Assembly (NCBI GenBank): GCA_002724395.1
Contig: PBOR01000030.1
Span: 65,043 to 129,042 of the forward strand
Origin: Rhodospirillaceae bacterium
GTDB lineage: Bacteria > Pseudomonadota > Alphaproteobacteria > UBA8366
DNA length: 64,000 nucleotides
Direction: 5' to 3'
In this document: in pieces, positions 3,474 to 60,560 of the stretch
Layout: every line of letters begins with the position of its first letter
Numbering within the stretch: the first letter of the stretch is position 1
Translations under genes and position numbers: made by a program
The notes under the pieces: generated by a model
Database searches by the model: none
Seen by the model: the letters and a program-made list of their open reading frames with translations, nothing else
What the model was told of the DNA's origin: nothing

Positions 3474-3539
3474 AGTTTCTTTTTCTTAGTTCTTTGAAGG
3501 ACGAAAACAGATTTTTCCTTAAGTATGCTTAAAACTAGT

Positions 3540-3838
3540 GGGGGGCTTCTGTTGCCCGGTGCCCCCCGAACCGCGCTTACCTAACCTAAGTTAAGCAGCG
3601 AGGCGGGCTTCGCCCGCAAAGTTGTCGTTGGCATTTAACGACTATAGCCCGATAACGGTGGTACCATGCCGAGCACAAAGTCTGCCTTTACCACGCGCGT
3701 CGATCCTGTTTCGCCCCCAAAAATACCCCAGTGATGTATTGAAAGCCACAAAACTGGTGGAGGCGCCGGGTACCGCCCCCGGGTCCGCAACGCTTATTCC
3801 GCAAACCGTTTAGCGCTATAGCCGGCAAGCCGGCAGCA
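3540..3838 (-). ncRNA. ssrA: Two-piece (circularly permuted) tmRNA; outer ends approximate
   Basis: Minus strand: acceptor piece ends ...GGACCCGGGGGCGGTACCCGGCGCCTCCACCA (CCA at 3757..3755), about 36 nt intervening segment, then coding piece starting GGGGGCGAAACAGGATCGACG at 3718. Tag frame GCC AAC GAC AAC TTT GCG GGC GAA GCC CGC CTC GCT GCT TAA (3632..3591) = ANDNFAGEARLAA*. 5' GGGGGCG (3718..3712) pairs with CGCCTCC (3765..3759) as a 7-bp acceptor stem with a G3-U wobble. Confidence 0.93.
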
Positions 3839-3958
3839 CGAATATAAGTCTATTTGTAATGGATATAAACCTGTTCAAACAATTATTACGCTAATCGTCC
3901 CCATCTTCCCCATAATTCACAGATGGCCCCAGACAATTGTCAGCTATACATTGTTCTA

Positions 3959-11407: not shown

Positions 11408-12910
11408 ATGGAGGTTCTAATGGACCAATCAGTGAAAAGACGAGCCACAAGTAAACCCATTCGCAACTTACAGTGGTTGGTTGCGTTACCATTGATGGCC
11501 GTATTGTTCATTCATGCTGGGCCGGTATCTGCACGTTCCGCGCCGGATAGTTTTGCTGATCTAGTAGAGAAACTTTTGCCCGCGGTGGTCAACATCTCAA
11601 CTAGTCAGAAGGTATCGCGCAAAGGCGGTCATGGTTTTCCCGATTTCGATTTACCACCAGGCTCACCATTTAAAGATTTTTTCGATCAGTTCAAGAAACA
11701 CCGTAAAGACCAACCAGAACCTAGCGAAAAAGCGACGTCGTTGGGATCTGGTTTTATTATCGATAAATCTGGCCTAATTGTGACAAATAACCATGTGATC
11801 GACGGTGCTGATCAAATCACAGTGGTATTGAAAGATTCGACGCGTTTAGAGGCTACAGTACTAGGTAAAGATGAGAAGACGGATTTGGCTTTGTTGAAGG
11901 TGACTTCAAAGAAGCCGCTGCCATTCTTAAAGTGGGGTGAATCTAAAAAAGTGCGTGTTGGTGACTGGGTACTGGCAATTGGTAATCCGCTCGGACTGGG
12001 TGGTTCGGTCACTGCGGGCATTGTTTCGGCCCGCGGTCGTGATATTCGTTCTGGGCCATATGACGATTTCATCCAGACAGATGCTCCCATTAATCGAGGT
12101 AATTCCGGTGGGCCGTTGTTTGATATGCAAGGCCGTGTCATTGGTATTAACACCGCTATTCTGTCTCCCAACGGCGGCAGTATCGGGATTGGGTTTTCTA
12201 TACCCTCGCAATTGGCGAAGGGTGTTATTGGACAGTTGCAAAAGTTCGGTGTCACTAAGCGTGGTTGGCTCGGTGTACAAATCCAAACCGTTTCCAAGGA
12301 TATTGCAGATAGTCTTGGTCTGGATGAGGCCTATGGGGCGCTTGTCGCGGGGATCGTGAAAGATAGCCCGGCGGCGAGAGCGGGATTTAAGAGTGGCGAT
12401 GTGATATTACAATTTGATGGTAAGAAAGTTACTGAGTCCCGTCGTTTGCCACGCATGGTAGCGGAAACCGACGTAGGTAAAAAGGTACGGGTAGATATTT
12501 GGCGGGCTAAGAAAAACAGAAAGCTCTGGGTAAAGCTGGGAGAACTTGAAAAGGTCGATCAGGTGGCACTCGGAGATGGCAAAAGAGCGCCCAAAAGTAC
12601 CGCACAGAATTTTGATGAGCTTGGTCTCAGTCTGGCAACCATAAGTAATGATTTAGAAAAGCGCTTTAAGCTGGCGGACGATGTCGAGGGCGTTTTGGTA
12701 ATAGATACTAAATCGGACGGCGTGGCTGCAGAAAAGGGTCTTCGACCTGGAACGGTGATCGTTGAGGTTAATCAGGTAAAGGTAAAAACTCCCCGCGATT
12801 TTTCCGAGGCGCTTAAGAGAGCTCGAAAAGCAAATCAAAAATCAGTTTTGTTGCTTATTAATGAAGGTGGCGAGGTACGCTTCATTGGCCTAAAATTAGT
12901 TAAAGGGTGA
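11408..12910 (+). CDS. degP: Do family serine endopeptidase (DegP/HtrA) with two PDZ domains
   Basis: 500 aa; TNNHVIDGADQITV, DEKTDLALLKV, TDAPINRGNSGGPLFD catalytic Ser motif, two PDZ-like regions. Confidence 0.94.
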   Translation: MEVLMDQSVKRRATSKPIRNLQWLVALPLMAVLFIHAGPVSARSAPDSFADLVEKLLPAVVNISTSQKVSRKGGHGFPDFDLPPGSPFKDFFDQFKKHRKDQPEPSEKATSLGSGFIIDKSGLIVTNNHVIDGADQITVVLKDSTRLEATVLGKDEKTDLALLKVTSKKPLPFLKWGESKKVRVGDWVLAIGNPLGLGGSVTAGIVSARGRDIRSGPYDDFIQTDAPINRGNSGGPLFDMQGRVIGINTAILSPNGGSIGIGFSIPSQLAKGVIGQLQKFGVTKRGWLGVQIQTVSKDIADSLGLDEAYGALVAGIVKDSPAARAGFKSGDVILQFDGKKVTESRRLPRMVAETDVGKKVRVDIWRAKKNRKLWVKLGELEKVDQVALGDGKRAPKSTAQNFDELGLSLATISNDLEKRFKLADDVEGVLVIDTKSDGVAAEKGLRPGTVIVEVNQVKVKTPRDFSEALKRARKANQKSVLLLINEGGEVRFIGLKLVKG

Positions 12911-13010: not shown

Positions 13011-13985
13011 ATGCTTGAGATTCAGAAAGAAGAATTGGGGGGTATGGAAGTGGTTTCAACCAAATCATCGACACGCCTAAAACAACTCATACACCGTAAA
13101 GATAAGGTCTTAGTTGTGCTACATCCTCCGTCGGCCGCCCATGCGCGCGTGATGGAGGAAGCAGGCTGCGAGGCAGGCTTTGTAGGCACCGGTGGAGTTG
13201 TTGGCGCTTATACGGGCATGGATGATGTTGGCCAGGCGAGCATGATGGAATGTATTCAAATTGCCGGATGGATAGCTGAAAGCGTCAAATTCCCTATTAT
13301 TCTGGACGGCGATACGGGGCATGGTGGGATCATGGCGGTTCGGCGTCTAATCCGCGAGTGTATACGTCATGGGATTGCTGGTATTCGCATTGACGATCAA
13401 CCCATAGAAGGTAAACGGAAAACGCAAAGCGACGGTGTCGAAGTGGTATCCATTGATCAGGCGGTGGCGCGTTATCGGGCTGCAGTGGATATGAAAAACG
13501 AGTTGGATCCAGATTTTATTATTCAGGCACAATGCTACGCCCGCGACGCGGCTAATAGCGACCTTGAAGATTGTATCAAACGTTTGCAGGCCTATGAGCA
13601 GGAAGCGGGCGTGGATTGGGTGCAGATAGAATCACCTCATTCGAAAGAAGAGATCGCGCAAGCCCGTGCAGCGGTCAAAGGACCGCTTTCATTTATGAAG
13701 GGTAAGCTGAAGCAATTTTTGACTCTTGAGGAACACCTGGAACTGGGCTGTAATATTGCTTGGTTTCCGGGCTTCACCCATCATGTTACCTGGGCAGCGC
13801 TTTATGATTTCATGCTCGATTTTAACGAGCGCGGTATGACCGCGTGGGATGAATTTCAGGCGTCTCGCAAGGACAAACCTTATCCAATTCCGAAAGTGGG
13901 CCCGGAAGGAGAGGGGCAGGCGAAACAGATGGAGCTTGAGCAGAAATATTTCAGCGCGGAAATGTTGAGAAAATATAGAGCCTAA
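13011..13985 (+). CDS. Isocitrate lyase/PEP mutase superfamily protein of unknown specificity
   Basis: 324 aa; AHARVMEEAGCEAGFVG, ILDGDTGHGGIMAVRRLIRE, GIAGIRIDDQPIEGKRKTQ. Family clear; canonical KKCGH lyase motif not present. Confidence 0.82.
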   Translation: MLEIQKEELGGMEVVSTKSSTRLKQLIHRKDKVLVVLHPPSAAHARVMEEAGCEAGFVGTGGVVGAYTGMDDVGQASMMECIQIAGWIAESVKFPIILDGDTGHGGIMAVRRLIRECIRHGIAGIRIDDQPIEGKRKTQSDGVEVVSIDQAVARYRAAVDMKNELDPDFIIQAQCYARDAANSDLEDCIKRLQAYEQEAGVDWVQIESPHSKEEIAQARAAVKGPLSFMKGKLKQFLTLEEHLELGCNIAWFPGFTHHVTWAALYDFMLDFNERGMTAWDEFQASRKDKPYPIPKVGPEGEGQAKQMELEQKYFSAEMLRKYRA

Positions 13986-14007: not shown

Positions 14008-15165
14008 ATGGCACGTGGTAATTTGAAAATTTTTGATTCCGATACCCATGTTGGGCCTTATGTGAACGTATTGGAACCTTATATGAGTGAGCGCGACAGG
14101 AGAGTGCTAGCAGAAGAGTGGGGGGAGTTTAAGTCGACTGGAGCGCGAACTGACAATACTACTTTTACGCGTGGCGCGAGGAAGTACCTTCGTCGTTTGG
14201 GAGAAGCCGAAGCGGATACATCGAAAAAGGGTTATATGGCTGGGTTTATAGGTGCTCAGAAAAAGAGCCCGTCTTCGCAAGTGGACAACGACCCTCACGA
14301 ACGCATTAAAGACATGGATTTGGAGGGGGTTGACGTAAACCTGACATTACCTTCGGGTTGGTTTGGCACTTTTATCGGTCATGACGACGTGGAGCTTGAA
14401 ACCGGTATGATCAGTGCTTACCACCAGTGGATGGAGGATTATTGCGGAGTATATCCAAAGCGTATTGGCGGTGTAATTTTGTGCACGAGCCGAGACATCG
14501 AGTTCAGTGTGGCACAAATAAAAAAATGGGGTAAATCTGGTTGGGCGTGGGGTATTCTTGTCTATACGCCACCGAAAGTGCCACTAGATCATCCTGACAT
14601 TGAGCCGATTTGGAAGGCTGCCGCAGATCATGATCTGGCGATTACATTGCACACATTTACGGTAATGCCACCCTATGCCCCCGGTGGAACGGATAACTGG
14701 GAAAATCTCTTCCTCCAGCGCTCGGCATCGCATCCCTGGTGCGGAATGCGGAATGTTGCCTGTGTCGTTGGATCCGGCATTATGGATCGGTATTCGGATA
14801 TCCGTGTGGGCTGTTTGGAGGCGGGCCACAGCTGGCTGCCGTTTTGGATGGCGCGCATTGATGAGCACGCGCGCACCATTCCATCTGCCTTACCCGAGGA
14901 TTTAAAGATGTTGCCTAGCGAGTACATTAAAAGTGGTCGCTTTTTTCAAAGCATCGAAATTCCTGAAGGTGGCGAGTTAACCAATATGATTATCGATTTT
15001 CTCGGTGAAGATATTTTGATGTATGCCTCGGATTATCCGCACGGGGAGAGCCATTTTCCTGAATCGGTTGATTTGGTCATGGATTGGACAATGTCCGATG
15101 AGCGTCGTTCAAAGCTCATGTGGGAGAATGCTTGCAAACTTTATGCGCGCGCCGACGTGACTTAG
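14008..15165 (+). CDS. Amidohydrolase family metal-dependent hydrolase (amidohydro_2-like)
   Basis: 385 aa; IFDSDTHVGP N-terminus, LGEDILMYASDYPHGESHFPESV C-terminal metal motif. Confidence 0.82.
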   Translation: MARGNLKIFDSDTHVGPYVNVLEPYMSERDRRVLAEEWGEFKSTGARTDNTTFTRGARKYLRRLGEAEADTSKKGYMAGFIGAQKKSPSSQVDNDPHERIKDMDLEGVDVNLTLPSGWFGTFIGHDDVELETGMISAYHQWMEDYCGVYPKRIGGVILCTSRDIEFSVAQIKKWGKSGWAWGILVYTPPKVPLDHPDIEPIWKAAADHDLAITLHTFTVMPPYAPGGTDNWENLFLQRSASHPWCGMRNVACVVGSGIMDRYSDIRVGCLEAGHSWLPFWMARIDEHARTIPSALPEDLKMLPSEYIKSGRFFQSIEIPEGGELTNMIIDFLGEDILMYASDYPHGESHFPESVDLVMDWTMSDERRSKLMWENACKLYARADVT

Positions 15166-15185
15166 AGGAGAGTTGGGGAAAGTAT

Positions 15186-16361
15186 ATGCCAAAGATTGAT
15201 CGCGTCGAAATTAGGGTTACGGACTATACCTCCCGTCTGAAACGAACGACCATGCACGGCGACTACGATACGGGTGCATCGGGCACATTACTTGGTAAAC
15301 CATGTCTGCTTCGTATCTTTGCCGATGGTATTACCGGATACGCTCAAGTTCGCCCGACGACGCCGGGCCACTCAATGCCAGATACTTGGAAAAGTGTCTC
15401 CGGTGCTTTTGAGGAGATTATCGGGCCTATGCTGATTGGGCGTGATATTTTTGATATCAACGCGATATTCGCGGAATTCGATATGTTTCTTCCCTACAAT
15501 CCTGTAGTTCGCACGATGCTAGATTTTGCGCTTCATGATGCCCAAGGTAAGGCTACTAACCAGCCTGTTCATAATCTGCTCGGCGGTCTTTCCCAGGAGT
15601 TATTGCCACTAGAATGGTCGATCAGCATGTATGACGACCCACAACAGAGTATCAATGATGCCCTCCGCGGTAAGCAGGAATTTGGTATTAATGTGGCCTG
15701 CCTCAAAGCGGGTTCGCCTAAGGGCTGGCGCCATGATGTCATGTGCTTCGAGAAGCTTCGTGAGAGCTGTGGGCCCGAAATGGAGCTTGGTATGGATCCC
15801 AATACCGCCTGGAGTGTGCCCGATACGGTTTTAGCCTTGGAGGCCTGCCGCGATGCGCGTCTTGATTATATCGAACAGCCGATTGAACGACGCGATCATG
15901 CAGGGCTAGCTCATATTCGGCGTAGTGCGCGCGGCACAAAGGTAATGGCTGATGAAGCAGTGATGAGCGTACAAGATGCTTACGATTTAGCAAAGGCGGA
16001 AGCCTGCGACGTATTCTGCGTCAAGCTCTATCGTATGGGAGGATTGAAGATAGCGCAAAAAATTGCCGGCATTGCGGAAGGTGCTAATATTCTCATTAAT
16101 ATCGGTGGGCTTGCCGTGATGTCGCAGTTGGAGGCTGCAGCCGCAGCACATTTCTACGCTAGTCTGCCCGCACGCCGTTGCATGCCGGCGGGTGAATTTA
16201 TTTTTGGGCTTGGTGTATCCGGCGAGGACCCGCTGGTCCCCGAACCTGACTTTAAAATTGAGAATGGCCATGTAAGGCCGCCTGCGGGTCCTGGGCTTGG
16301 GATCAATATCGACGAAAAAGCTCTAGAGAAATACACACTCTATAAGGAGGTAATTTCATGA
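15186..16361 (+). CDS. Mandelate racemase/muconate lactonizing enzyme family (enolase superfamily) protein
   Basis: Start MPKIDRVEIRVTDYTSR (15186). MDPNTAW, YIEQPIE, VMADEAV, VFCVKLYRMGG, PAGPGLGINIDE. Confidence 0.85.
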   Translation: MPKIDRVEIRVTDYTSRLKRTTMHGDYDTGASGTLLGKPCLLRIFADGITGYAQVRPTTPGHSMPDTWKSVSGAFEEIIGPMLIGRDIFDINAIFAEFDMFLPYNPVVRTMLDFALHDAQGKATNQPVHNLLGGLSQELLPLEWSISMYDDPQQSINDALRGKQEFGINVACLKAGSPKGWRHDVMCFEKLRESCGPEMELGMDPNTAWSVPDTVLALEACRDARLDYIEQPIERRDHAGLAHIRRSARGTKVMADEAVMSVQDAYDLAKAEACDVFCVKLYRMGGLKIAQKIAGIAEGANILINIGGLAVMSQLEAAAAAHFYASLPARRCMPAGEFIFGLGVSGEDPLVPEPDFKIENGHVRPPAGPGLGINIDEKALEKYTLYKEVIS

Positions 16362-17788
16362 ACGCTCAAGTCGCAGAACTCGATAACGCTCCCGCGGACG
16401 TCGCGCCGGTCACGCGCATTGTTGCGGAATGGGTTGCCAATCTAAAATTAGAGGATATCCCTGAAGCCTCACTCAAGCATGCTCGGCGTGCATTATTGGA
16501 TAGCCTCGGCTGTGGTATTTACGGTAGCGAACAGGAATGGTGCCAGTTGGCAACCATTGTGGCGGAGGAAAACTCCTTCGGCGGTCCTTGTGCGGTCTGG
16601 GGTGCCGGCAAACGTGTTGGTCCGGCGGATGCGGCTATGGTTAACGGCACTGGCATACATGGTTTTGAGATCGATGATCTTCATGTAGAATCGATGCTAC
16701 ATCCTGGTGCGGTTATATTGCCTGCGGTCATAGCGCTCGCGGAAGCGCGCAATCTCTCGGGCAAAGATATTTTGCGGGGACTGGTGGTCGGTTACGAGAT
16801 AGGCATCCGTACGGCGATTTGTTCCAGTATCGAACATAAACTCAAAGGCTATCATATGACGCCCACTAACGGCACGATTGGAGCTGCCGCAGCGGCAGCC
16901 GCCACTTTGGGTCTTAATGTCGAGAAGACCAACGACGCCATCGGTATTTCAGTTAGTTTTGCGTCCGGCCTCTATTCTGCGCGAAAAGGCGCAATGACTA
17001 AACGCCTTCATGGTGGTCTGGCGGCCCGGAACGGCGTTCTGGCGGGTTTGCTGGCAGAGAAAGGCTTTACTGGCGCTAAGGATGGATTGGAAGTCGATTT
17101 CGGCGGTTATTTCTCAACCTTGGGCGAAAATTCTGATCTTTCAATCATGACCGACGACCTGGGCTCGCGCTGGCATATCGATGATATTGGCTTTAAGGCT
17201 TATGCATCTTGCGGTAGCACGCACACTACGGTGGATTGCGTGAAGAAACTGATGGATGAGGGACTTAGTGCTGATAATTTGGAAAGTCTTACGGTGCGTA
17301 TCTCGAAGGCGGGCTTTACTAACGTGGGGTGGAAATACGAGCCAGTTGGCATTGTAGGCATGCAAATGAACGGCCGTTTTGTCGCCGCGACGCAATTACT
17401 GAAGGGTGAAGTTTTCGTAAATCAGTTCTCCGTCGATCGAATGGAAGATCCTGATACACTCGAGCTTATCAAGAAAATAGATATTGTTCATGACCCAGAA
17501 ATTGATGCTCTGGGACTTGCAAAACGCCACACCGTCGTGGTTACAGCTAAGGATACTAGTGGGAAGGAGTATGAAACTACGCGCGAACAGCGAAAAGGTA
17601 GTGCGCAATTCCCGCTGAGTGACGCGGAGTTGGAATCCAAATTTCGCCGGACCGCGGGCGTTGTTATTCCGGAAAAGACTGCGGATAGAATTGTCGAATT
17701 GGCAGGCTCTATCGAAACGGCAGAGACAACGGAGGAATTGAGTAGTTTGTTGTTGGGTCAGGCGCAAATACCGCTTGCTCGGCTTTAG
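16358..17788 (+). CDS. MmgE/PrpD family protein
   Basis: 476 aa; ARRALLDSLGCGIYG, AAMVNGTGIHGFEIDDLH, HPGAVILPAVIALAE, KRLHGGLAARNGVLAGLLAEKGFTG. ATGA overlap with the preceding gene. Confidence 0.9.
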   Translation: MNAQVAELDNAPADVAPVTRIVAEWVANLKLEDIPEASLKHARRALLDSLGCGIYGSEQEWCQLATIVAEENSFGGPCAVWGAGKRVGPADAAMVNGTGIHGFEIDDLHVESMLHPGAVILPAVIALAEARNLSGKDILRGLVVGYEIGIRTAICSSIEHKLKGYHMTPTNGTIGAAAAAAATLGLNVEKTNDAIGISVSFASGLYSARKGAMTKRLHGGLAARNGVLAGLLAEKGFTGAKDGLEVDFGGYFSTLGENSDLSIMTDDLGSRWHIDDIGFKAYASCGSTHTTVDCVKKLMDEGLSADNLESLTVRISKAGFTNVGWKYEPVGIVGMQMNGRFVAATQLLKGEVFVNQFSVDRMEDPDTLELIKKIDIVHDPEIDALGLAKRHTVVVTAKDTSGKEYETTREQRKGSAQFPLSDAELESKFRRTAGVVIPEKTADRIVELAGSIETAETTEELSSLLLGQAQIPLARL

Positions 17789-17839: not shown

Positions 17840-19066
17840 ATGGTTCAGGCTGAAACAACCGCGCCGCTAACGCGACGCGAGCAGGGCGTTGTTGCGCTCA
17901 TTAGCACTGGTCACGGCATAACCCATTATTTGCACTCTATTGTGCTAGTGGTGAGCCCACTTATAAAAGAAAAGTTCAATCTCTCTTATACGGAACTTGG
18001 ACTTTTTTTCACTATTTACACGTCAGGCAATTTCCTTGCAGCTTTAGTCGGCGGCCCATTTGCTGACCTAACCGGCCGACGACAATTACTGCAAGTGGTT
18101 TCGATGGCAGTCTTATCGTTAGCCATTCCGTTGCTCGGGTTTGTGGAGGAGTATGCCACGCTTCTAGCGCTGGGCGTCTTCATTGCATTTTCTAATCAAC
18201 TTTGGCATCCGGCTGCTATTCCCTATTTGGCGACCCGGTTTAACTCGCACCGTGGGTATGTCATGTCGATCCACGGAATGTGTTCCAATATGGGTGACGT
18301 ATTAGTCCCTTTGATTGTACCTGCTATGTTGACCGGTAATTATATGGTTGCGCAGCTAGACCCTATGTCGTGGCGCAGCGTCATGATCGTCAATGCGACC
18401 CCCGGCTTTCTGATTTTGCCGCCTTTGGTCCTCATGGCATTGCGGGAGAAGGTTTTAAAGGCAGGCGGCGAAAGGCTCAATCTGAAGAGCTATTTTGCTG
18501 GCATCGTCGAGCAGGCTAAAAATCGCGTGGTAATGGGGGTCGGGCTTATTGCTGGTCTAAGGACTACGGCGCAGTCGGGTTCGCGTAATTTCTTACCGGT
18601 TTATTTGGTTGATCAATTTGACTGGACCTTGACCCAGGCTGGTTTCGCGTTGTTGCTGCTTAATTTGGGTGGCTCAGTTGCGGCTGTTCCAGCGGGTATG
18701 GCATCGGATAAATTTGGCAGGCGCAGAGTTATGTTAGTCGCCATCACTGCGGCGACGCTGTTCATCCTTATGCTTCCGCTGTTACAGGATGAATTCATGA
18801 TCGTGATGGGAATTTGTTTGGTTGGCTTCTCTATATATGCAACCCGACCGGTATTGCTAAGTTGGATGATGGATTCGGTGTCCAGTAATTTTCGTGGCAC
18901 CGCGACAAGCTTAATGTTTGCCACTCAATCGGTGTTTTCGATCCCAAACATGGCGATTACCGGTATCATCGCCGATACGTTTGGTGTTGCAACAATCTTT
19001 TATTGGTTCGCTTTGATGCTACTGATAGCTAACGCGGTTATCTTCTTTCTGCCAAAGGATGACTGA
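17840..19066 (+). CDS. MFS transporter (FSR-like), array copy 1
   Basis: 408 aa; GHGITHYLHSIVLVVSPLIKEKFNLSYTELG, DLTGRR, WHPAAIPYLA, ATRPVLLSWMMD. Confidence 0.9.
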   Translation: MVQAETTAPLTRREQGVVALISTGHGITHYLHSIVLVVSPLIKEKFNLSYTELGLFFTIYTSGNFLAALVGGPFADLTGRRQLLQVVSMAVLSLAIPLLGFVEEYATLLALGVFIAFSNQLWHPAAIPYLATRFNSHRGYVMSIHGMCSNMGDVLVPLIVPAMLTGNYMVAQLDPMSWRSVMIVNATPGFLILPPLVLMALREKVLKAGGERLNLKSYFAGIVEQAKNRVVMGVGLIAGLRTTAQSGSRNFLPVYLVDQFDWTLTQAGFALLLLNLGGSVAAVPAGMASDKFGRRRVMLVAITAATLFILMLPLLQDEFMIVMGICLVGFSIYATRPVLLSWMMDSVSSNFRGTATSLMFATQSVFSIPNMAITGIIADTFGVATIFYWFALMLLIANAVIFFLPKDD

Positions 19067-19071
19067 GGCCG

Positions 19072-19170
19072 GTGACAGCTACGTTGTATGTCATCTTCGG
19101 TCTCATGCTAACCGCTGCCACCTTCTTTTGGTTCATCCCCTACACAAGTAGGGGAGGCGACAAAACTTAG
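19072..19170 (+). CDS. Putative 32-aa single-pass membrane microprotein
   Basis: GTG start 5 nt after copy 1 stop; reads MTATLYVIFGLMLTAATFFWFIPYTSRGGDKT*; one hydrophobic helix then a charged tail. Below the ORF track cut-off. Confidence 0.4.
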   Translation: MTATLYVIFGLMLTAATFFWFIPYTSRGGDKT

Positions 19171-19192
19171 GGAATAGGGTAGTCAGGTATTT

Positions 19193-20413
19193 ATGTCCAA
19201 TATCGTAAATGCCTTTAAACTTCCGAATCCGGGCCCAGCTTTATGTCTGATGGCGGGTCATGGGGCAACCCATTGGATGATTGGGGTGTTTTATGTGTTG
19301 CTTCCGTTTGTCCGGGAGGATTACGGTTTTAGCTATACGCAAATTGGGTTTTTGTTGGCTGCTTTTGAGGCAGGCGTACTCGTGTGCAGTCTGGCGAGTG
19401 GGCCGGTAGTGGATATGACTGGGCGTAGGGTAATTTTTCAGGTGTTGGCGCTGGTGGTGGGCGGCTTGGCGATGTTGGCCCTTGCGGTAGCTCCCGATAT
19501 TTTCTTTTTCTGCGTGATGGCAGCGTTGGTGGGCGGGGCGACCCAATTTTGGCACGCACCAGCGACGGCCTTTCTGTCGTTCTATTATACTACGAACTGG
19601 GGCTATGTGGTTGGTATTCACGGTATGGGTGCTAATATAGGTGAAGCTATTGGCCCGCTTATCGCCGGTGTTGTGATTACAACTTTTGGCTGGCAAATGG
19701 GCGCTTTGGTCCCTGCAGTTGCGTCGATTGTGGCAGCCATTGCGTTGTTTGTTTTGTTGTTACCCAAGGACACCCCGGGCGATGGGGAAAAAGCCAAGGG
19801 TCTTACTCTCGGCCAATATTTCGATGGCTTCGCGGGGCTGCTTAAGAATTTTGGCGTAATGATACTATGCGTCATGATGGGTTTCCGTTCGACAGCGCAG
19901 TTATTAGTCCGCACCTTCGTACCGCTTTATCTGCGCGATATTATGGGTGCAAGTGCTACAATAATCAGTGCGGTTTATGCGATCATGCATGTGGGCGGAA
20001 TGATAGCGAACCCGGCGGGTGGCGTAGCGTCAGACCATTTTGGGCGCAAGCCAATCCTGGTGGTGGCGTTACTGGCTGGCACTGCGCTCATACTAGGGCT
20101 GACTCTGGTTGGTAATGAGGTTCTCTTTATCATCGGCATCGGTTTTCTTGGTTTTACGCTATACGGTACGCGGCCGGTGACGCAAAGCTGGATCCTCGAC
20201 ATGGTGCCGAAGAACTTGCATGCAACCAGCGTGGCCCTGCGCTCTTTGGTGCAATCGGTGTTTGGGCTCGCTGCTCCGCCGCTAGGCGGTATGGTGGCCG
20301 ACATGTACGGTTTGTTGCACGTTTTCTACGGTATCGCGTTATTACTGATGATTGCAAACTTACTGACATTTTTAGTACCGGAAGTCTCTAAAGATGAAAA
20401 AGCGGCTGAATAG
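19193..20413 (+). CDS. MFS transporter (FSR-like), array copy 2
   Basis: 406 aa; GHGATHWMIGVFYVLLPFVREDYGFSYTQIG, VDMTGRR, FWHAPATAFLS, GTRPVTQSWILD. Confidence 0.9.
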   Translation: MSNIVNAFKLPNPGPALCLMAGHGATHWMIGVFYVLLPFVREDYGFSYTQIGFLLAAFEAGVLVCSLASGPVVDMTGRRVIFQVLALVVGGLAMLALAVAPDIFFFCVMAALVGGATQFWHAPATAFLSFYYTTNWGYVVGIHGMGANIGEAIGPLIAGVVITTFGWQMGALVPAVASIVAAIALFVLLLPKDTPGDGEKAKGLTLGQYFDGFAGLLKNFGVMILCVMMGFRSTAQLLVRTFVPLYLRDIMGASATIISAVYAIMHVGGMIANPAGGVASDHFGRKPILVVALLAGTALILGLTLVGNEVLFIIGIGFLGFTLYGTRPVTQSWILDMVPKNLHATSVALRSLVQSVFGLAAPPLGGMVADMYGLLHVFYGIALLLMIANLLTFLVPEVSKDEKAAE

Positions 20414-20494
20414 CGCAGGCCACTCGATCGCCCTTGTTAACGAGGCGTCTCGGCTTTAAGGTAATGTTTCCTTTGCGCTGTTCAGGATAATTCT

Positions 20495-21742
20495 TTGGCC
20501 TCTCCCCGGTTTCTATCTGCATTCCGGCTGCCCAATGCCGGTGGTGCTTGGCTGATGTGTATTGGACATGCGGCGACCCATTGGGTTTCGGCTATTTTCT
20601 ATATGTTACTGCCATTCATCCGCGAAGAGATGGGGATGAGCTATGCGGAAGCTGGCTTGCTCGCGTCGGCTTACCAGACCGGCTTTTTTCTGGGTAGCTT
20701 AGCTAGTGGGCCCGTCGTCGATATTACCGGCCGTCGGGTTGTGTTCCAGGTTGGAGCTTTAGTAGCGATTGGCGCCGCTATTACTGTGATTGGCGTGGCG
20801 GAAAATTTCCTGTTGTATCTTGTGATGGTTATGCTCATGGGGGGCGCTGCCAATTTTTGGCATCCGCCAGCCATTGCATTCATATCCGATACCTATCCCA
20901 ATAATCGTGGACTTGCGCTCGGCGTACATGGCATGGGCTCAAATATGGGCGAGGCTTACGGTCCTTTGATCGCTGGATATTTAATTACCCTAATAAGCTG
21001 GCAGGGGACGGCGATTGCGGCAGGAATGCCCACAGTCGCCGTGGCATTTATACTTTTTATAATATTGATTGGAAAAGACAAACCGGTCTCTGGCAAAGGT
21101 CCTCAAAGCCAAGGGCAAAGTATGACTGAGTATTTGGAAAATTTTGCCGATTTATTGCGCAACCCGATCGTTGTTGGGATTTCATGCATGTCGGGAATTC
21201 GCTCCGCTGGTCAGACTCTGGTAAAGACGTTCCTGCCATTGTACATGAAGGATTCGCTGGGCATGGGGGCCACGATGATGGGCTGGGCCCTTTTTGTTAT
21301 GCAACACGGTGGCATGATTGTGGCTCCCATCGCCGGCGTAGCTGCAGATCGGTATGGGCGACGACGGATGCTTATATTGGTGTTGAGCGTTACATCGGTG
21401 TCAATGATCGCGCTGACTTTCATTGAGAACAAGATGCTTTTCGTAGTTGGGATGGGTGCGTTTGGGTTTGTCACCTATGCGATGCGCCCCATCAGTCAGG
21501 CGTGGATGATGGATGCAGTACCTAATGATATGGCTGCTTCGTCTATGAGCTTTATGTTTTTAGTTCAAGGTATACTTGGCATGCTGTCGCCGTTCCTTGG
21601 TGGTTGGCTGGCTGATGCGCATGGACTTGAATCGGTTTTTTATCTTATTGCGGGCTTGTTGCTTATCGCTAACGCGGTAACTTTCTTTATTCCCGATCCT
21701 TCTAAACACGTGGCCCAACCAGTCACTAAGCCGGCGGAGTAG
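20495..21742 (+). CDS. MFS transporter (FSR-like), array copy 3
   Basis: 415 aa (TTG start); GHAATHWVSAIFYMLLPFIREEMGMSYAEAG, VDITGRR, FWHPPAIAFIS, AMRPISQAWMMD. Confidence 0.9.
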   Translation: MASPRFLSAFRLPNAGGAWLMCIGHAATHWVSAIFYMLLPFIREEMGMSYAEAGLLASAYQTGFFLGSLASGPVVDITGRRVVFQVGALVAIGAAITVIGVAENFLLYLVMVMLMGGAANFWHPPAIAFISDTYPNNRGLALGVHGMGSNMGEAYGPLIAGYLITLISWQGTAIAAGMPTVAVAFILFIILIGKDKPVSGKGPQSQGQSMTEYLENFADLLRNPIVVGISCMSGIRSAGQTLVKTFLPLYMKDSLGMGATMMGWALFVMQHGGMIVAPIAGVAADRYGRRRMLILVLSVTSVSMIALTFIENKMLFVVGMGAFGFVTYAMRPISQAWMMDAVPNDMAASSMSFMFLVQGILGMLSPFLGGWLADAHGLESVFYLIAGLLLIANAVTFFIPDPSKHVAQPVTKPAE

Positions 21743-21747
21743 ACGCG

Positions 21748-22971
21748 ATGGCGGCAACCGAAAACCATACAGCATTTGGAGGTAAGCCTGTGGCGCCCGT
21801 GATCTTGTTGGCCCTTGGTCACGGCGCGACCCATTACACCTGGGGCACAATCTTAATACTTGTGCCATTTATCAAGCAGGCACTCGACCTCACCTATACT
21901 CAAGCCGGATTGATAGTAGCGGTCTTTCATGTGACGGGTTTTTTCGCAAATTTCATGACGGGATTGGCGGTCGATGTTTCCGGTCGCCGGATGTTATTCA
22001 TGGTGTTGTCTGCTTTATTGTGCGGGGCGACGACATTTTCCTTGGGCTTGTCGAGTAGCTTGTTTTTGATTTGTGTTGCTGCTGGGTTTATGGCGATTGG
22101 CGTACAGGGTTGGCATCCGCCGGCTTTTGCTTGCCTTGCCGAAGAGTATGAAAAGGCTAAAGGGTTGGTTTTCTCTATTCACGTGGTGGCGGCAAATATA
22201 GGTGAAGCTCTGGCATTTCAGATCGGTGGCTTGTTGGTTACGTTACTTGGCTCTTGGCAGCTTGCGGCAATGGCTGGCGGTATGCCAGGCCTTTTGATGG
22301 GCGTTATTTTACTCATTTTTATGTTGCCTAAGGAACGCGGAGCCGGCGGCGGACAAAAGCAGGGTATGGGGCTTAAGGATTATCTTGAGGGATATGTGCA
22401 GTTACTAAAAAACATGCCAGCTATGATGGTTTGTTTAGTGAGCGCACTTCGCACTATGGCGCAAAACGGTTTAATGGTTTTTGTGCCGCTTTATTTAATC
22501 GATGTTTTGGGGGTGACCGCCGCGCTAACCGGCACCGCAATGTTGCTGATGCAGGTGACCGGTGGTTTTGCCACGCCTGTTGGTGGTTATACTGCTGATC
22601 GGTATGGGCCACGCCCTGTTCTGTTTGTTTGTATAAGTATCACTTCGGTAGCTATTGTTGCAGCGACCCTTTTGACGGATCCGACCAGCTATATCGCGTG
22701 TATCGCCATCATTGGTTTTGTATTGTTCGCCATTCGGCCGGTCTTGCAGCGCTGGATTGTCGATTTGGTGCCAAACGAGTTTCGAGGGTCCGCGACCAGT
22801 GTGATGTTCAGCATGCAGGCGGCGGCTAACGCTATTACACCCATTATAGGTGGCTGGATTGCAGATAGTTACGGTATGATGCCGGTTTTTTACTTCTTGG
22901 CGGTAATTATGTTGACGGCGAATTTGGTTACGGTGGTTTTGCCGAAGAGAAATCCTGCGAATGCTGATTGA
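21748..22971 (+). CDS. MFS transporter (FSR-like), array copy 4
   Basis: 407 aa; GHGATHYTWGTILILVPFIKQALDLTYTQAG, VDVSGRR, GWHPPAFACLA, AIRPVLQRWIVD. Confidence 0.9.
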   Translation: MAATENHTAFGGKPVAPVILLALGHGATHYTWGTILILVPFIKQALDLTYTQAGLIVAVFHVTGFFANFMTGLAVDVSGRRMLFMVLSALLCGATTFSLGLSSSLFLICVAAGFMAIGVQGWHPPAFACLAEEYEKAKGLVFSIHVVAANIGEALAFQIGGLLVTLLGSWQLAAMAGGMPGLLMGVILLIFMLPKERGAGGGQKQGMGLKDYLEGYVQLLKNMPAMMVCLVSALRTMAQNGLMVFVPLYLIDVLGVTAALTGTAMLLMQVTGGFATPVGGYTADRYGPRPVLFVCISITSVAIVAATLLTDPTSYIACIAIIGFVLFAIRPVLQRWIVDLVPNEFRGSATSVMFSMQAAANAITPIIGGWIADSYGMMPVFYFLAVIMLTANLVTVVLPKRNPANAD

Positions 22972-22992
22972 GAAATATTAGAAAGGCAGTAA

Positions 22993-24264
22993 ATGGCCGC
23001 AAGCGCTGAAAATGGTAAGGCATGGGTCCCCGGTAATGGGGCATTCGCACTGCTGTGCGCGGGGCACGGGGTCACTCACTTTGTCTTCGCGGCAACCATC
23101 ATGTTGTTGCCTTATATTCGCCAAGACGGTGGCTTGAGCTACACGGAAGCAGCTAGCCTAGGGACGGTTTATTATGTAGCTGCTTTCATCGCTAATTTCG
23201 TTAGCGGTTACTGGGTGGATGCGGTCGGAAAGCGCGTGATGGTGCAGCTGGTAAGCGTATTAATGGCCGGTGGTGGCGTGATAATGGCCGGACTTGCTGG
23301 CTATGTCATGGACGGGTTCTCACTGTTCATCGTATTGGCGATTGGTTGGGCGTTTAGCGGCATGGGTAATCAGGCCTGGCATCCGGCGGCCTTTTCGTAT
23401 TTAGCCAAATACTATGATGATCGGCGCAGTTTTGTTTTTTCCATCCATGTGGTGGCGGCAAATGTGGGAGATGCTATTTTTCCGCTTATAGCCGGTTTTC
23501 TATTGGGTCACGTGTTTGTTTCAGTTGCGGGTAAGGAGATGTGGGAGCCGGTAGCGATTTTCGCCGGTATTCCCTGTTTGTTGGTAGGGACTATCCTTAT
23601 AGTTTATTTGGCACCGCGCGATCGCGCGATTATTGGCGGGCCGCCGAAGGGTATGAGTACAAAATCCTATTTCGAGGGATACGCCCAATTGCTGAAGAAT
23701 AAGAATGCCATGTTGTTGGCATTGGTGGCTGGCCTTCGGAATGCGTCACAAACCGCACTACTCTATTTTTTGCCGTTATATATGGTAGATGTGATTGTGA
23801 GCGGTCCCGTATTAGTTGGAATTGCGCTTACCTTGTTGCAGGTAGGCGGGATGCTCGGTGCACCCATCGCGGGATATGTGGCGGACTGCAAAGGGCAGCG
23901 CCCCGTAGTTTTCGTATGTTTAACACTGACGACTGTCATTCTCGTGGCGGCACTTTTCGTAAAAGAGCCCACGCATTTTGTAGCGGTTATTGCGCTGATG
24001 GGCTTCGCGCTCTACGCAGTTCGGCCTGTGGTGCAAAGCTGGATGATGGATTTGGTGCCGGAAGAATTTCGTGGGTCCGCCACTAGTGTGATGTTTGGTG
24101 TGCAATCCGCTATGAATGTGATCTTCTTGTCCGTCGCGGGGCCGATTGCGGACGCCTATAGCCTCGTCACAGTGTTCTATATTATTGCTGGCGTGGTGTT
24201 GATCGCAAATATGCTGACCTTCGCTTTGCCAAAAAATTCGACTCGTATAACCGTAACACTCTAG
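22993..24264 (+). CDS. MFS transporter (FSR-like), array copy 5
   Basis: 423 aa; GHGVTHFVFAATIMLLPYIRQDGGLSYTEAA, VDAVGKR, AWHPAAFSYLA, AVRPVVQSWMMD. Confidence 0.9.
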   Translation: MAASAENGKAWVPGNGAFALLCAGHGVTHFVFAATIMLLPYIRQDGGLSYTEAASLGTVYYVAAFIANFVSGYWVDAVGKRVMVQLVSVLMAGGGVIMAGLAGYVMDGFSLFIVLAIGWAFSGMGNQAWHPAAFSYLAKYYDDRRSFVFSIHVVAANVGDAIFPLIAGFLLGHVFVSVAGKEMWEPVAIFAGIPCLLVGTILIVYLAPRDRAIIGGPPKGMSTKSYFEGYAQLLKNKNAMLLALVAGLRNASQTALLYFLPLYMVDVIVSGPVLVGIALTLLQVGGMLGAPIAGYVADCKGQRPVVFVCLTLTTVILVAALFVKEPTHFVAVIALMGFALYAVRPVVQSWMMDLVPEEFRGSATSVMFGVQSAMNVIFLSVAGPIADAYSLVTVFYIIAGVVLIANMLTFALPKNSTRITVTL

Positions 24265-24273
24265 TGGGGTGCT

Positions 24274-25506
24274 ATGTCTAATTTGGGTTTTTCCGACGCG
24301 CTTAAGCTCAAAGGCCAAACTGCAATTGCGTTGATTGGTCTTGGTCATGGTGCCGTGCATTGGGTCTATATGGTATTCACGGTTCTGACGCCTTGGATTA
24401 AGCAAAGCTTTAGCTTGAGCTATACGGAAATCGGATCGCTTCACGCCATCTTTCATATTGCGTCTTTTGCCGCCAATGCTGGCAGTGGCGTCTTGGTGGA
24501 TATCACCGGCAAGCGTGTTTTGTTTCAAGTGGTTGCCGTGTTAGCTGGCGGCATTGCTATATTAGTCTGTGGTTTAGCGGATGGTTTTTTGCTGTTGGCC
24601 AGCATGATGGCCATTATCGGTGCTTCCAATAATCTCTGGCACCCTGCAGCACTTGCCTTTTTATCGCAGGAGTTCCCGGAGAATAAGGGTTATGCGCTTT
24701 CAGTCCATTCTGTGGGGGCGAGCCTTGGCGATATATTGGCGCCCTTGGTCGCTGTTTCTTTTTTTATGGGGGTTTTGCAGATCAGCTGGCGGTTCGCGGC
24801 GATGGTCAGTTCTGTGCCTGTTTTCCTTGTTGGATTGGCAATTCTAATTATTGTACTGCCAAAGGATTTTATAGGACCTACTGGCGATGCGAAGCGAGGT
24901 ATGAGTGGGCGTGATTACTTATCTGGACTTGCTACTCTTCTAAAAAATAGGGCTATTTTGGGTATTTCATTGATGGCGGCCTTTCGCACGTCGGCATTGT
25001 TTTGTATCTTTTTCGCTTTACCGCTCTATTTGGTCGACGTGTTGGGTCTATCGGTGGAAACACAAGGACTTGCTATGGCTATGATGCAGATTGGCGGTTT
25101 TGTTACCGGCCCATTGGCGGGTACTTGGTCGGATAAGATTGGGCGTCGTCCGATTGTGATGGGCGGATTATCGGCGATTACAATCGTGATAATTGGCCTG
25201 ACTTTTGTTGGCAATCCTGCGGTGTTTGTAGTCGGTATTACGGTTTTGGGGTTTGCACTTTATGCTATTCGCCCGGTCACCCAAGCTTGGATGATGGATC
25301 TTGCGCCAAAAGAACATGGCGCGTCGGCAGCGAGCGTCATGTTTGCGATGCAAAGTGGCTGGACTCCAATCGTCGTGCTTCTGAGCGGTGTGGTTGCCGA
25401 TGAGTTTGGTCTACTCTCCGTGTTCTATCTTATTGCTGCCTCGATGCTATGCGCTAACATTGTGGCATATTATTTGCCTAGTGAAAAAAGAGAGGAAAGT
25501 CACTAG
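24274..25506 (+). CDS. MFS transporter (FSR-like), array copy 6
   Basis: 410 aa; GHGAVHWVYMVFTVLTPWIKQSFSLSYTEIG, VDITGKR, LWHPAALAFLS, AIRPVTQAWMMD. Confidence 0.9.
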   Translation: MSNLGFSDALKLKGQTAIALIGLGHGAVHWVYMVFTVLTPWIKQSFSLSYTEIGSLHAIFHIASFAANAGSGVLVDITGKRVLFQVVAVLAGGIAILVCGLADGFLLLASMMAIIGASNNLWHPAALAFLSQEFPENKGYALSVHSVGASLGDILAPLVAVSFFMGVLQISWRFAAMVSSVPVFLVGLAILIIVLPKDFIGPTGDAKRGMSGRDYLSGLATLLKNRAILGISLMAAFRTSALFCIFFALPLYLVDVLGLSVETQGLAMAMMQIGGFVTGPLAGTWSDKIGRRPIVMGGLSAITIVIIGLTFVGNPAVFVVGITVLGFALYAIRPVTQAWMMDLAPKEHGASAASVMFAMQSGWTPIVVLLSGVVADEFGLLSVFYLIAASMLCANIVAYYLPSEKREESH

Positions 25507-26393
25507 CTGACGAATTCGTCGTCCCGGTACCCCTGCAGATAAAGAAGCGCTGTGAGATCGCCGTGATCAATCCGTGCCGCTGCCTCGCGGGCTACAATGG
25601 GTTTTGCATGATAGGCAACGCCAATGCCGGCGGCGCCCAGCATCGTGAGATCGTTAGCGCCATCACCGACGGTTATACTGGCTTCTATTGGAATGTTTTG
25701 TGCCTTGCATAGCGCTAGTAAACGCTCTTTCTTCGCGTTCCGCCCAAGGATCGGTTCAATCACTTGGCCGGTTAGTTTACCATCGGCAATTTCCAATTGA
25801 TTAGCCTGATGAAAATTGAACCCTAGCTGATCACGAATATCGGCTGTATAGCTGCTAAAACCACCGGAGACTAAGGCGCAATAAGCATCATTGGTGCGCA
25901 TGGTGGCCACTAATTCTTTTGCTCCCGGCATTATGCGGATAGATTTTTTTGTTCGCTCGATCGCACCGATATCAAGCCCGGCGAGGAGCGCGACTCGTTC
26001 TTTGATGGCGTCATCAAAATCTAACTCACCATTCATAGCGCGTGCGGTAATTTCGGCTATTTGATCGCGAATGCCTACTTCGTCGGCGAGTTCATCAAGC
26101 ATTTCGTTTTCAATAATAGTTGATTCCATATCGGCGACAAGTAGGCGCTTTCTTCGGCCCAAAAGTGGTTGAGCGACAGCATCTACTGCGATATCGCCGA
26201 GCGCTTCGAAGGCTAATTCGCGACTATCTTCGCATTCAATGCCGGAAAACCTAAGGTCTACAGCCGTACGGTAGGCTAACCAGTAGGGGGGGTCGATCTT
26301 CGCCCCCATACCCGCCAGCGTGGCAATGACTTCCGATATTTGGGTCTCGTCTAGTTGGCTTTTTGGGCCAATCAATGTCAGTACTTTGTCCAT
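25503..26393 (-). CDS. serB: Phosphoserine phosphatase
   Basis: ORF 25503..26531; likely start MDKVLTLIGPKSQ (26393). LLVADMESTIIENEMLDELAD, ALVSGGFSSYT, VGDGANDLTMLGAAGIGVAYHAKP. Confidence 0.93.
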   Translation of the reverse strand: MDKVLTLIGPKSQLDETQISEVIATLAGMGAKIDPPYWLAYRTAVDLRFSGIECEDSRELAFEALGDIAVDAVAQPLLGRRKRLLVADMESTIIENEMLDELADEVGIRDQIAEITARAMNGELDFDDAIKERVALLAGLDIGAIERTKKSIRIMPGAKELVATMRTNDAYCALVSGGFSSYTADIRDQLGFNFHQANQLEIADGKLTGQVIEPILGRNAKKERLLALCKAQNIPIEASITVGDGANDLTMLGAAGIGVAYHAKPIVAREAAARIDHGDLTALLYLQGYRDDEFVS

Positions 26394-26421
26394 AGCGCTG
26401 TCATCTGTATCCTCCTGGCTT

Positions 26422-27378
26422 ATGACTGGCAACGAACAATCTAACGTCCTGGTAATTACGGGGCCGACTGCGAGCGGTAAATCTGGTGCCGCATTGTCTG
26501 TGGCTGAAGAGTTTGGTGGCGCAGTAATCAATGCGGACAGTATGCAGGTCTATCGGGATTTACGCATTTTGACCGCTCGACCATCGGAAGCAGATGAAGT
26601 GCGCGTGCCACACCTTCTTTATGGCGCGCTTGCAGCCTCGGAGCGGTGCACGGCGGTGCGATGGTCTGAAATGGCATTGGCGGCAATCGAAGAACAGATT
26701 GGTTATGGGAAACTGCCCATTCTTTGCGGAGGCACGGGTCTTTACCTTAAAGCCTTGATGGAAGGCTTGTCACCTATACCCGATATTCCTGATGATGTCC
26801 GGGATGCGGTGCGCGCGCGGGTTAAGTCTGAAGGGACGGATGGGTTACATAGGGAGCTGGTGGCACTTGGAGATCCGATAGCGGCGCGCCTTATGCCTGC
26901 GGATAGGCAACGTGTTACTCGTGCTTTCGAAGTATATAAGGCAACCGGCCAGTCTCTCGCTGTCTGGCAAGCTCTGCCGAGCGAGGGAATTGCCGAGCAC
27001 TTGCAATTCCATACAATTTTGATCGATCCGCCGCGCGACGCGCTTTACAGGTCTTGTGACCGACGTTTTGCCGAAATGGCAGGAAATGGCGCAATTGAGG
27101 AAGTCCGAGATCTAATGGCTCTTAAGCTCGACCAGGGGTTACCGGTGATGAAAGCAGTCGGTGTAAAAGAACTTGCAGGATTTTTGGATGGTATCCAGAC
27201 TTTAGATGATGCCATAGCCGCATCTCAGCGGGCTACAAGACGACTTGCTAAAAGGCAGATTACTTGGTTCTCGAATCAGATGATTCCAAATCTACATATT
27301 AAAAAGCAATATTCAGAAAGAATTTTATATGAGATCTTTTCATTTGTTATGAAAAAACGGTTGACCGGGGTTAGGTGA
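26422..27378 (+). CDS. miaA: tRNA dimethylallyltransferase
   Basis: Start MTGNEQSNVLVITGPTASGKSGAAL (26422); INADSMQVYRDLRILTARPS, CGGTGLYLKALMEGL, KRQITWFSNQM. Confidence 0.95.
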   Translation: MTGNEQSNVLVITGPTASGKSGAALSVAEEFGGAVINADSMQVYRDLRILTARPSEADEVRVPHLLYGALAASERCTAVRWSEMALAAIEEQIGYGKLPILCGGTGLYLKALMEGLSPIPDIPDDVRDAVRARVKSEGTDGLHRELVALGDPIAARLMPADRQRVTRAFEVYKATGQSLAVWQALPSEGIAEHLQFHTILIDPPRDALYRSCDRRFAEMAGNGAIEEVRDLMALKLDQGLPVMKAVGVKELAGFLDGIQTLDDAIAASQRATRRLAKRQITWFSNQMIPNLHIKKQYSERILYEIFSFVMKKRLTGVR

Positions 27379-48399: not shown

Positions 48400-49797
48400 T
48401 CATTCCACCGTAGCACTTTGGCTTTTTGTGGCTGGATGTAGCATCAGACTGGTGATTTCCTTTAAATTCCTCTCGTTCTCAAGGTTTTGTAGGCGTTCGA
48501 AAAGAGGTTTGATCGCGTCATATTGTAAAGTTCGGAGCGCGCAATCTTCAAATTTTTCCCAAAGCTCATCATCTCGCATTGGATTACTAAGTCCTCGGCC
48601 TAAATCGACGGCATTATAACTTGAAAATTTTTCCCCATTATTAGTTGTAACAATAACTTCAGCTGCATGGTACGGTTGAGAATCTGGGGTCATATCCGGA
48701 TGTACGCGGGCGTCGACTTTCTTAAGTAATTCACGGATTTTAGGTTGCTCGAAGGCTTCCCGTTCGAAATGGGCGAGTTTTATGCGCCCGTCAAGCAGTG
48801 CTCGGGATACGGTGTACTGCTGACTAAATTTACACTGCAGCGGTGTTTGAGGGTTTGGGTTATTGGTATGGGGCAATCGGAATGGGTGAACGAGGACTTC
48901 AATCTTTTTAATTTGGTCTATTTCGATATTGTTGTCGGCACGTATGCTTAGCGCTGCTTCAATTGGTGGGTGGGTGGCACCACAGCAGGGATGTTTTTTC
49001 AAACCGACACCGACACTTACGAGATCGAATGGATTGCCCCAATCTGCTAGCATTTTATCGACGTTATAGGTGCCAGGTCCGTTAAAGACCTCTAAAAAGC
49101 CTTGTTTGTGTTCGAAAGCGTTATCGTTCGAGGTGAAACCTTCTTTTGCTAGCATGGCGGCATACAAGCCGTTTCGGTTGCCGTGTCCCACATGTAGTGG
49201 TTTCGTCATGGATCCAAAATTAGATTTGATGCCGGATGCTAATGAAGCTGCTATTCCTAGTGCTTTTGCGGTTTGTTCGATACTCAGTCCTAACAGTCGC
49301 GAGGCTGTTGCGGTTGCGCCGAACACGCCAAGTGTTGCGGTCGGGTGCCACCCCTTATCGTAATGATGCATATGGACACCGCGTGCTATGCGCGAAATAG
49401 TTTCCTGACCGACCACATAGGCCAAGATGGCATCCTTACCGTTTATTTCAAGCACGTCGCCGAGTGCAAATATGATAGGCATCACCATTACGGTTGGATG
49501 ACCTCCCATTGTAATAGCCATATCGTCGAAATCGAGTGCATGGGCGGACGTGCCGTTTATCAACACCGCATCTAAGGGATTAGTGCGGTAGTCTCGTCCG
49601 AACACGGCACTAGGTCCTTCGGCACCCGCAAAGCCTGGCATTTTTTCGATGATTTTCACCATGTCTTCTGCTGCGCCAACAAATGCGCAGCCAACCGCAT
49701 CTAGCAGAGCAGTGCGTGCTAACGGAATGGCTTCAGCAGGCAAGTCCTCAAATTTAATCGCATTGATGCGTTCAGCTAAGTCGTATGAAATTGTCAT
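48400..49797 (-). CDS. MmgE/PrpD family protein (second copy type)
   Basis: ORF 48400..50115 over-extended; start MTISYDLAERINAIKFEDLP (49797). ARTALLDAVGCAFVG, INGTSAHALDFDDMAITMGGHPTV, KPLHVGHGNRNGLYAAMLAKEGFT. Confidence 0.9.
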   Translation of the reverse strand: MTISYDLAERINAIKFEDLPAEAIPLARTALLDAVGCAFVGAAEDMVKIIEKMPGFAGAEGPSAVFGRDYRTNPLDAVLINGTSAHALDFDDMAITMGGHPTVMVMPIIFALGDVLEINGKDAILAYVVGQETISRIARGVHMHHYDKGWHPTATLGVFGATATASRLLGLSIEQTAKALGIAASLASGIKSNFGSMTKPLHVGHGNRNGLYAAMLAKEGFTSNDNAFEHKQGFLEVFNGPGTYNVDKMLADWGNPFDLVSVGVGLKKHPCCGATHPPIEAALSIRADNNIEIDQIKKIEVLVHPFRLPHTNNPNPQTPLQCKFSQQYTVSRALLDGRIKLAHFEREAFEQPKIRELLKKVDARVHPDMTPDSQPYHAAEVIVTTNNGEKFSSYNAVDLGRGLSNPMRDDELWEKFEDCALRTLQYDAIKPLFERLQNLENERNLKEITSLMLHPATKSQSATVE

Positions 49798-49819
49798 CGT
49801 GGATGCTCCCAGGATTGAT

Positions 49820-56393: not shown

Positions 56394-56394
56394 T

Positions 56395-57546: not shown

Positions 57547-57549
57547 TGA

Positions 57550-59352: not shown

Positions 59353-59363
59353 AGTGCCGCCTC

Positions 59364-60554: not shown

Positions 60555-60560
60555 TGAGCG

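Follow-up and report, generated by a model that had tools for sequence, protein, structure and literature searches.

Why does a single chromosomal position come to hold six adjacent and much diverged copies of the same kind of membrane transporter gene, and what might so many copies be for? The question is raised by a stretch of 64,000 nucleotides from a Rhodospirillaceae bacterium (assembly GCA_002724395.1, contig PBOR01000030.1, forward-strand positions 65,043 to 129,042), referred to here as the window, in which six consecutive genes of the major facilitator superfamily (MFS), M1 to M6, fill positions 17840-25506 of the + strand. We find that this array is an ancient in situ tandem expansion of a single MFS gene within one alphaproteobacterial family. 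The reading of the whole that we favour, and hold with moderate confidence, is that the gene expanded in place into a set of co-expressed, proton-coupled organic-anion carriers of diverged specificity.

Six genes in one chromosomal slot

The array consists of M1 (17840-19066, 408 amino acids, aa), M2 (19193-20413, 406 aa), M3 (20495-21742, 415 aa, with a TTG start), M4 (21748-22971, 407 aa), M5 (22993-24264, 423 aa) and M6 (24274-25506, 410 aa). A preliminary description of this DNA had listed six intact same-strand open reading frames (ORFs) of 406-423 aa with gaps of 126, 81, 5, 21 and 9 base pairs (bp), and ORF calling reproduced this exactly. All six match the Pfam family MFS_1 (E 6e-40 to 1e-57, with 2e-40 for M1; 138-196 bits, with the cut-off at 33.4); they match no curated NCBIfam subfamily above its cut-off, and an Rfam scan of the array gave no match. 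Pairwise identity among them is 30-46%, far more than chance would give. When their shared profile is run against the whole genome (3.4 Mb, 75 contigs), the six are recovered at E 1e-176 to 1e-185 and the next MFS protein at 2.6e-27, so that genes of this type number exactly six. The motifs said to be common to all six are mostly real but looser than had been stated: GH[GA]xxH is invariant, while the WHP[AP] motif is WHAP in M2, the DxxGRR loop is DxxGKR in M5 and M6, and the WMMD motif is WILD in M2 and WIVD in M4. From the spacing of the genes (gaps of 5-126 bp), and from the finding that no + strand promoter-like sites lie between genes within 17840-25506, we infer that M1-M6 are co-transcribed.

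An assembly artefact can be dismissed, since a second genome of the same genus (G001), binned independently, carries all six genes in the same order at 93-98% identity, and part of the array is present in three genomes of another genus. To place it among relatives, we label the window's genus g1 (the window's own genome, G000, and G001), the genera of its family g1 to g5, and other families f2, f3 and f4, the last two being sister families. Homologues were sought with the array profile in 44 genomes of the order, 386 genomes from the class and 398 from the phylum; in the latter two samples scoring was limited to four candidates per genome, which would cut off counts above four but would still have revealed two or more copies. 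Strong homologues occur in 26 genomes of the order besides that of the window and, at one copy each, in 11 further genomes of the class sample outside the order; the phylum sample added no homologue-bearing genome outside the order. Outside the window's family, each of the 13 matching genomes among 385 others of the class has just one homologue, as does the one other matching genome among the 398 of the phylum.

In most genera of the order a single homologue sits in a fixed slot, hflK-hflC-degP-[MFS]-serB-miaA-ilvBHC, where the names hflK, hflC, degP, serB and miaA are assigned from sequence features and gene order. In the window the upstream border is a degP-like protease gene (11408-12910, + strand), identified by sequence features and synteny, whose orthologue adjoins the MFS gene or genes across the order, and the downstream border is a convergent serB-like phosphatase ORF (25503-26531, - strand), likewise a conserved neighbour across the order, which shares 4 bp with the end of M6. 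Among the single-copy loci of the order, 17 of 18 have degP and/or serB adjoining the MFS gene, several contigs stopping before the other border and two loci having inserts of a few kb; the exception is G011 (L029). The copies of the window's family occupy the slot of the single-copy orthologue, and in this family only is the slot filled by several copies. It holds one copy in G004, G008 and G005 (g4 and g5), two in G002 and G006 (g2), four in G003 and the identical set in G009 (M1, M2, M4 and M6; both g3), five in G007 (g3; M1, M2, M4, M5 and M6) and six in both g1 genomes, with orthologue order identical in every multi-copy locus. Homologues in other orders sit away from the slot and have no consistent neighbourhood (hydrolase, CoA-transferase, HemY, integrase and others); because of this inconsistency, deducing function from their neighbours was dropped.

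This distribution bears on one of the roles suggested earlier, namely that the six proteins assemble into hetero-oligomers. In its favour, M3-M6 lie so close together (5, 21 and 9 bp) that coupled translation would be possible. However, the single-copy relatives in the same slot must act alone, and g2, g3 and g1 hold different subsets with no conserved fixed stoichiometry. MFS carriers are, moreover, generally monomeric functional units. We therefore consider hetero-oligomers very improbable.

Descent, age and selection

How the copies are related was addressed by maximum likelihood (LG+C20+F+G4), with a tree that covers 58 sequences and takes its root from homologues in other orders of the class; a root on the fosmidomycin resistance protein Fsr, discussed below, together with the window's seventh MFS gene was discarded, its branches exceeding 6 changes per site. 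All copies of the window's family, with the exception of one partial g5 sequence, form one clade (support 89/84) apart from the single copies of other families. The partial g5 single copy groups with f2, and a tree that keeps all family members together is not rejected (approximately unbiased test, p 0.11). Monophyly of the six had been proposed as support for local amplification, and it holds in the sense that they fall in one clade together with the other family copies; they do not form a clade of six that leaves out the g4 and g2 copies. M6 clusters with the single copies of g4 (98/93), and nearly every single-copy homologue has M6 as its best BLAST match; M6 is therefore probably the resident ancestral gene. 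M2 and M3 are sisters (100/99; 45% identity), M4 and M5 join the second copy of g2 in one clade (100/98), and M1 groups with the first g2 copy, g2a (86/82). The tree thus indicates that duplication started before g2 split off and that losses afterwards shaped the present counts; the finest order of duplication is unsure, since several joins connect long branches.

Two losses, the first only probable, can be followed. M3 is kept only in the window's genus, and its branch is older than the split of g1 and g3, so that it was probably lost in g3; no remnant of it was found in the g3 gaps. M5 is intact in G007, and in G003 and G009 only remnants are present in the gap between M4 and M6 (L021:7622-7886 and L023:8724-8990), each consisting of the start and the end of the gene joined by an internal deletion, with further frame-breaking changes. 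The two genomes share the deletion junction, at which the two matches overlap by 9-11 bp. These remnants show that copies were lost piecemeal.

The surviving copies have been maintained. M1 orthologues in G001, G003, G007 and G009 are 77-97% identical, and for each paralogue common to the window and G007 the orthologues retain 65-78% amino acid identity. Between the two congeners the ratio of non-synonymous to synonymous substitution rates (dN/dS) is 0.034-0.126 for M1-M6 (0.049 for M1, 0.034 for M2, 0.105 for M4 and 0.078 for M5), within the range of the neighbouring ilvB (0.033), serB (0.108) and the enzyme genes upstream of the array, which points to strong purifying selection on the array copies. 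The longest exact run between any pair of paralogues is 15 bp, on which ground recent duplication and gene conversion were rejected. The earlier view of an old, maintained and local amplification is therefore borne out by the single family clade, the conserved orthologue order, the dN/dS of 0.03-0.13 and the lack of any run above 15 bp; its companion claim, that neither a recent duplication nor an artefact is involved, agrees with these short runs and with the congener carrying the same six.

Two other histories have to be weighed at this point. First, the copies might have been acquired horizontally, each from a source of its own, and have come together in the slot, as their low mutual identity would allow. 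To this we give hardly any weight: the family copies form one clade, the partial g5 sequence excepted, few genomes of the class (13 of 385) or of the phylum have homologues, and G+C content is uniform across the array at about 0.50. Second, the array may be a neutral or dosage-driven build-up of diverged tandem duplicates with largely overlapping jobs. Single members do seem dispensable, given that copy number varies from 4 to 6 and that M5 has decayed in two g3 genomes. Nevertheless, paralogues that are down to 30% identical have orthologues at 65-78% between genera under strong purifying selection, and paralogue-specific membrane residues are fixed across genera, which is unexpected of redundant copies retained for so long; we thus regard this history as improbable, though less so than separate acquisition.

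A conserved polar core and its relation to known transporters

What kind of transporter was duplicated? AlphaFold2 was run on the six window proteins and their six congeneric orthologues. The M6 model is a confident one and has 12 transmembrane (TM) helices in the MFS fold (predicted local distance difference test score 85.7, predicted TM-score 0.86), with motif A between TM2 and TM3 and again between TM8 and TM9; its residues G72-D76-G79 and G283-D287-G290 (positions are those of M6 throughout) are invariant. When this model was compared with the PDB by Foldseek, the D-galactonate:H+ symporter DgoT came first; the glucose-6-phosphate transporter G6PT took ranks three and four and the oxalate transporter OxlT rank seven, and VMAT and NorA followed closely. 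The MFS matches in the top 50 have TM-scores of 0.63-0.81. The best solved relative of the sequence profile is GlpT.

Beyond motif A, all copies and 26 of 26 single-copy homologues keep H25 and H29 (TM1), H123 (TM4) and H145 (TM5) and, equally, R238 (TM7), R333, W339 and D342 (TM10) and Q360 (TM11), an invariance that holds save for one X in the compared sequences. The presence of arginines and histidines within the membrane, on helices 1, 4, 5, 7 and 10, suggests a proton-coupled site for anions. Around this common core the paralogues differ. Position 246 (TM7, eight residues past R238) is R, R and K in M1, M2 and M3 and K in g2a, sequences that form one clade; all the remaining sequences have a hydrophobic residue there (L, M, F, V or I). 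Other membrane positions are constant within each paralogue and different between them, as for residue 61 (T/E/Q/H/Y/H).

The array shares several features with the anion:cation symporters and organophosphate antiporters DgoT, GlpT and G6PT (SLC37A4) and with OxlT: DgoT, G6PT and OxlT are among the best structural matches to the M6 model, GlpT and G6PT are among the best sequence-profile matches, and all have charged residues on their cavity helices and carry carboxylate or phosphate anions. The kinship is nevertheless distant, at 15-18% identity over the aligned fold, and the array falls well below the cut-offs of TIGR00893 (DgoT-like anion:cation symporters; 54-73 bits against 395) and TIGR00881 (PgtP; 60-88 bits against 407.75). 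A site of the GlpT type was considered and rejected, as GlpT H165, R45 and R269 are out of register with the residues that the array conserves; GlpT is kept as an analogy only.

The six genes had also been called FSR-like. The remote kinship stands: Fsr, too, is a 12-TM MFS protein with motif A in both halves, a TM1 histidine and an HP motif at TM4, and of the invariant polar core of the array it has only H25, H123 and motif A. A closer relationship does not hold, as E. coli Fsr is 19-22% identical to M1, M3 and M6 over full-length alignments (E 1e-10 with M1) and much of the polar core differs, the Fsr residues at H29, H145, R238 and R333 being D, F, K and F. A true alphaproteobacterial Fsr, from S. 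meliloti, shares 54.8% identity with the E. coli protein (PMC12095868), and the array does not reach this orthologue-level benchmark of about 55%. Fsr is, furthermore, a characterised single-gene, proton-dependent efflux pump and not an array (PMC12095868). The array thus appears to stand near Fsr within the superfamily without being Fsr. A search of the window's genome with E. coli Fsr matches M1, M6, a gene at 52.9 kb and M3. That third match is the seventh, single MFS gene of the window (52908-54104, - strand), which is a remote relative both of the array (E 2.6e-27 to its profile) and of Fsr and lies near genes of a TauD-family dioxygenase, a zinc-type dehydrogenase and the histidine-specific methyltransferase family.

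It is here that the strongest of the rival explanations has to be considered, in which the six are Fsr-type efflux pumps that diversified to export different toxic compounds, drugs or self-made intermediates. The Fsr query ranks M1 and M6 first in the genome, Fsr lines up with the array at the GH and HP motifs and at motif A, and NorA is among the solved relatives. On the other hand, identity to Fsr is far below that between the two Fsr proteins (PMC12095868), four polar core residues are unlike those of Fsr, no regulator or drug-resistance gene adjoins the array, and the nearest folds are mainly those of organic-anion carriers. We judge efflux to be unlikely. A literature search for bacterial tandem MFS arrays found no relevant report; its coverage was partial, which makes it weak evidence of novelty.

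Neighbouring enzymes and a possible role in organic-acid use

Between degP and M1 the window carries four further + strand genes. They encode a phosphoenolpyruvate (PEP) mutase/methylisocitrate lyase superfamily enzyme (13011-13985; PEP_mutase PF13714, E 2e-30; oxaloacetate acetylhydrolase and PEP mutase in the PDB), an Amidohydrolase-2 family protein (14008-15165; PF04909, E 3e-15; remotely similar PDB entries include amidohydrolases and carboxylate decarboxylases), a muconate cycloisomerase-like enzyme of the enolase superfamily (15180-16361; from family matches and PDB comparison) and an MmgE/PrpD-family enzyme ending 51 bp before M1 (16358-17788; nearest PDB entries cis-aconitate decarboxylase and iminodisuccinate epimerase). 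All four are of types that, judged by their families, mostly act on carboxylates. The set is present in g1 only and missing from the g2 and g3 slots. No close orthologue of the amidohydrolase was found elsewhere in the family; the enolase-superfamily enzyme has a single 55% homologue, in G004, among the relatives searched, and a sample of 384 other genomes of the class gave it no strong match (E<=1e-110). Tying the whole array to these enzymes was therefore rejected, and a link between array and enzymes can hold for g1 alone.

A broader association comes from MmgE/PrpD proteins as a family, to which the genes at 16358-17788 (+ strand) and 48400-50115 (- strand) of the window belong. The window's genome encodes 43 and its congener 45, with 22-37 in g2, 14-26 in g3, 9-16 in g4 and g5, 13-21 in f2 and 0-1 in f3 and f4. 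Slot copy number follows the density of PrpD per Mb (rho 0.85 across 27 genomes, 0.83 across 15 genus means and 0.94 within the family) more closely than it follows that of general MFS candidates per Mb (0.59, 0.55 and 0.22).

Because the nearest folds include DgoT, G6PT and OxlT, the upstream enzymes are of carboxylate type and array size tracks MmgE/PrpD, we favour organic-anion carriage. A single slot gene duplicated in place, anciently and within one family, and each copy would have become a 12-helix, proton-coupled carrier of a related organic anion of carboxylate or hydroxy-acid type. The common site formed by H25, H29, H123, H145, R238 and R333 would bind the shared anionic group and a proton, paralogue-specific residues around it would decide which acid is carried, and the copies, expressed together as a repertoire, would feed the expanded MmgE/PrpD and enolase-superfamily enzymes, with uptake preferred over export. 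Of the roles suggested in the preliminary description, that of related substrates is favoured, the six probably handling several related organic acids. Another of them, import or export of successive pathway intermediates, sits less well with the g3 slot, where the upstream enzymes are missing although most of the array is kept.

Several points weigh against organic-anion carriage by a co-expressed set. First, the placement of the named residues in the cavity depends on the predicted helix assignment, and NorA, VMAT2 and SPNS2 are, in sequence or fold, almost as close to the array as the anion carriers are, so that an exporter of drugs or amphiphiles is a less likely alternative. Second, the four enzyme genes are missing from the g3 slot, which keeps most of the array, and so cannot define the function of the whole. 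Third, co-transcription is deduced from spacing and from missing same-strand promoter-like sites. Finally, the PrpD correlation draws on few genera and is uncorrected for shared ancestry, and both g1 genomes are metagenome-assembled, with 6-8% estimated contamination.

Elsewhere in the window, positions 55197-61376 (- strand) encode a CoA-transferase III, three acyl-CoA dehydrogenases, a MaoC/mesaconyl-CoA hydratase-type protein and an HMGL-like lyase, a cluster that looks like a route for degrading branched organic acids, and positions 3537-3873 (- strand) hold a permuted, two-piece alphaproteobacterial transfer-messenger RNA (Rfam RF01849, 266 bits).

The expansion of MmgE/PrpD is perhaps the more striking feature of this lineage, and is comparable to the enolase expansion of SAR202, a marine oligotroph whose paralogues have been argued to serve an organic-acid catabolic lifestyle (PMC10444878); the transporter array may serve a similar one. 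Both cases show lineage-specific growth of a catabolic family in a small marine genome with several families rising together; SAR202, however, belongs to another phylum and expanded the enolase superfamily (PMC10444878), whereas here MmgE/PrpD is joined by one tandem transporter array in a conserved slot. Transport and catabolism may thus have grown together. A bolder proposal, which we put forward tentatively and with less confidence than organic-anion carriage itself, is that the slot is a "specificity library", in which an organic-acid carrier was copied in place and the copies tuned singly, in step with the MmgE/PrpD expansion (43 copies). If true, this would provide the organism with matched carriers and enzymes for many related acids, and the slot genes would make up an MFS subfamily of their own, as yet uncharacterised and marked by a His/Arg core. 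The copy steps of 1, 2, 4, 5 and 6 at a fixed locus, together with traceable loss, form a natural series for the evolution of transporter specificity, in which the single-copy gene would serve as the ancestral-like reference and the paralogues as its tuned variants.

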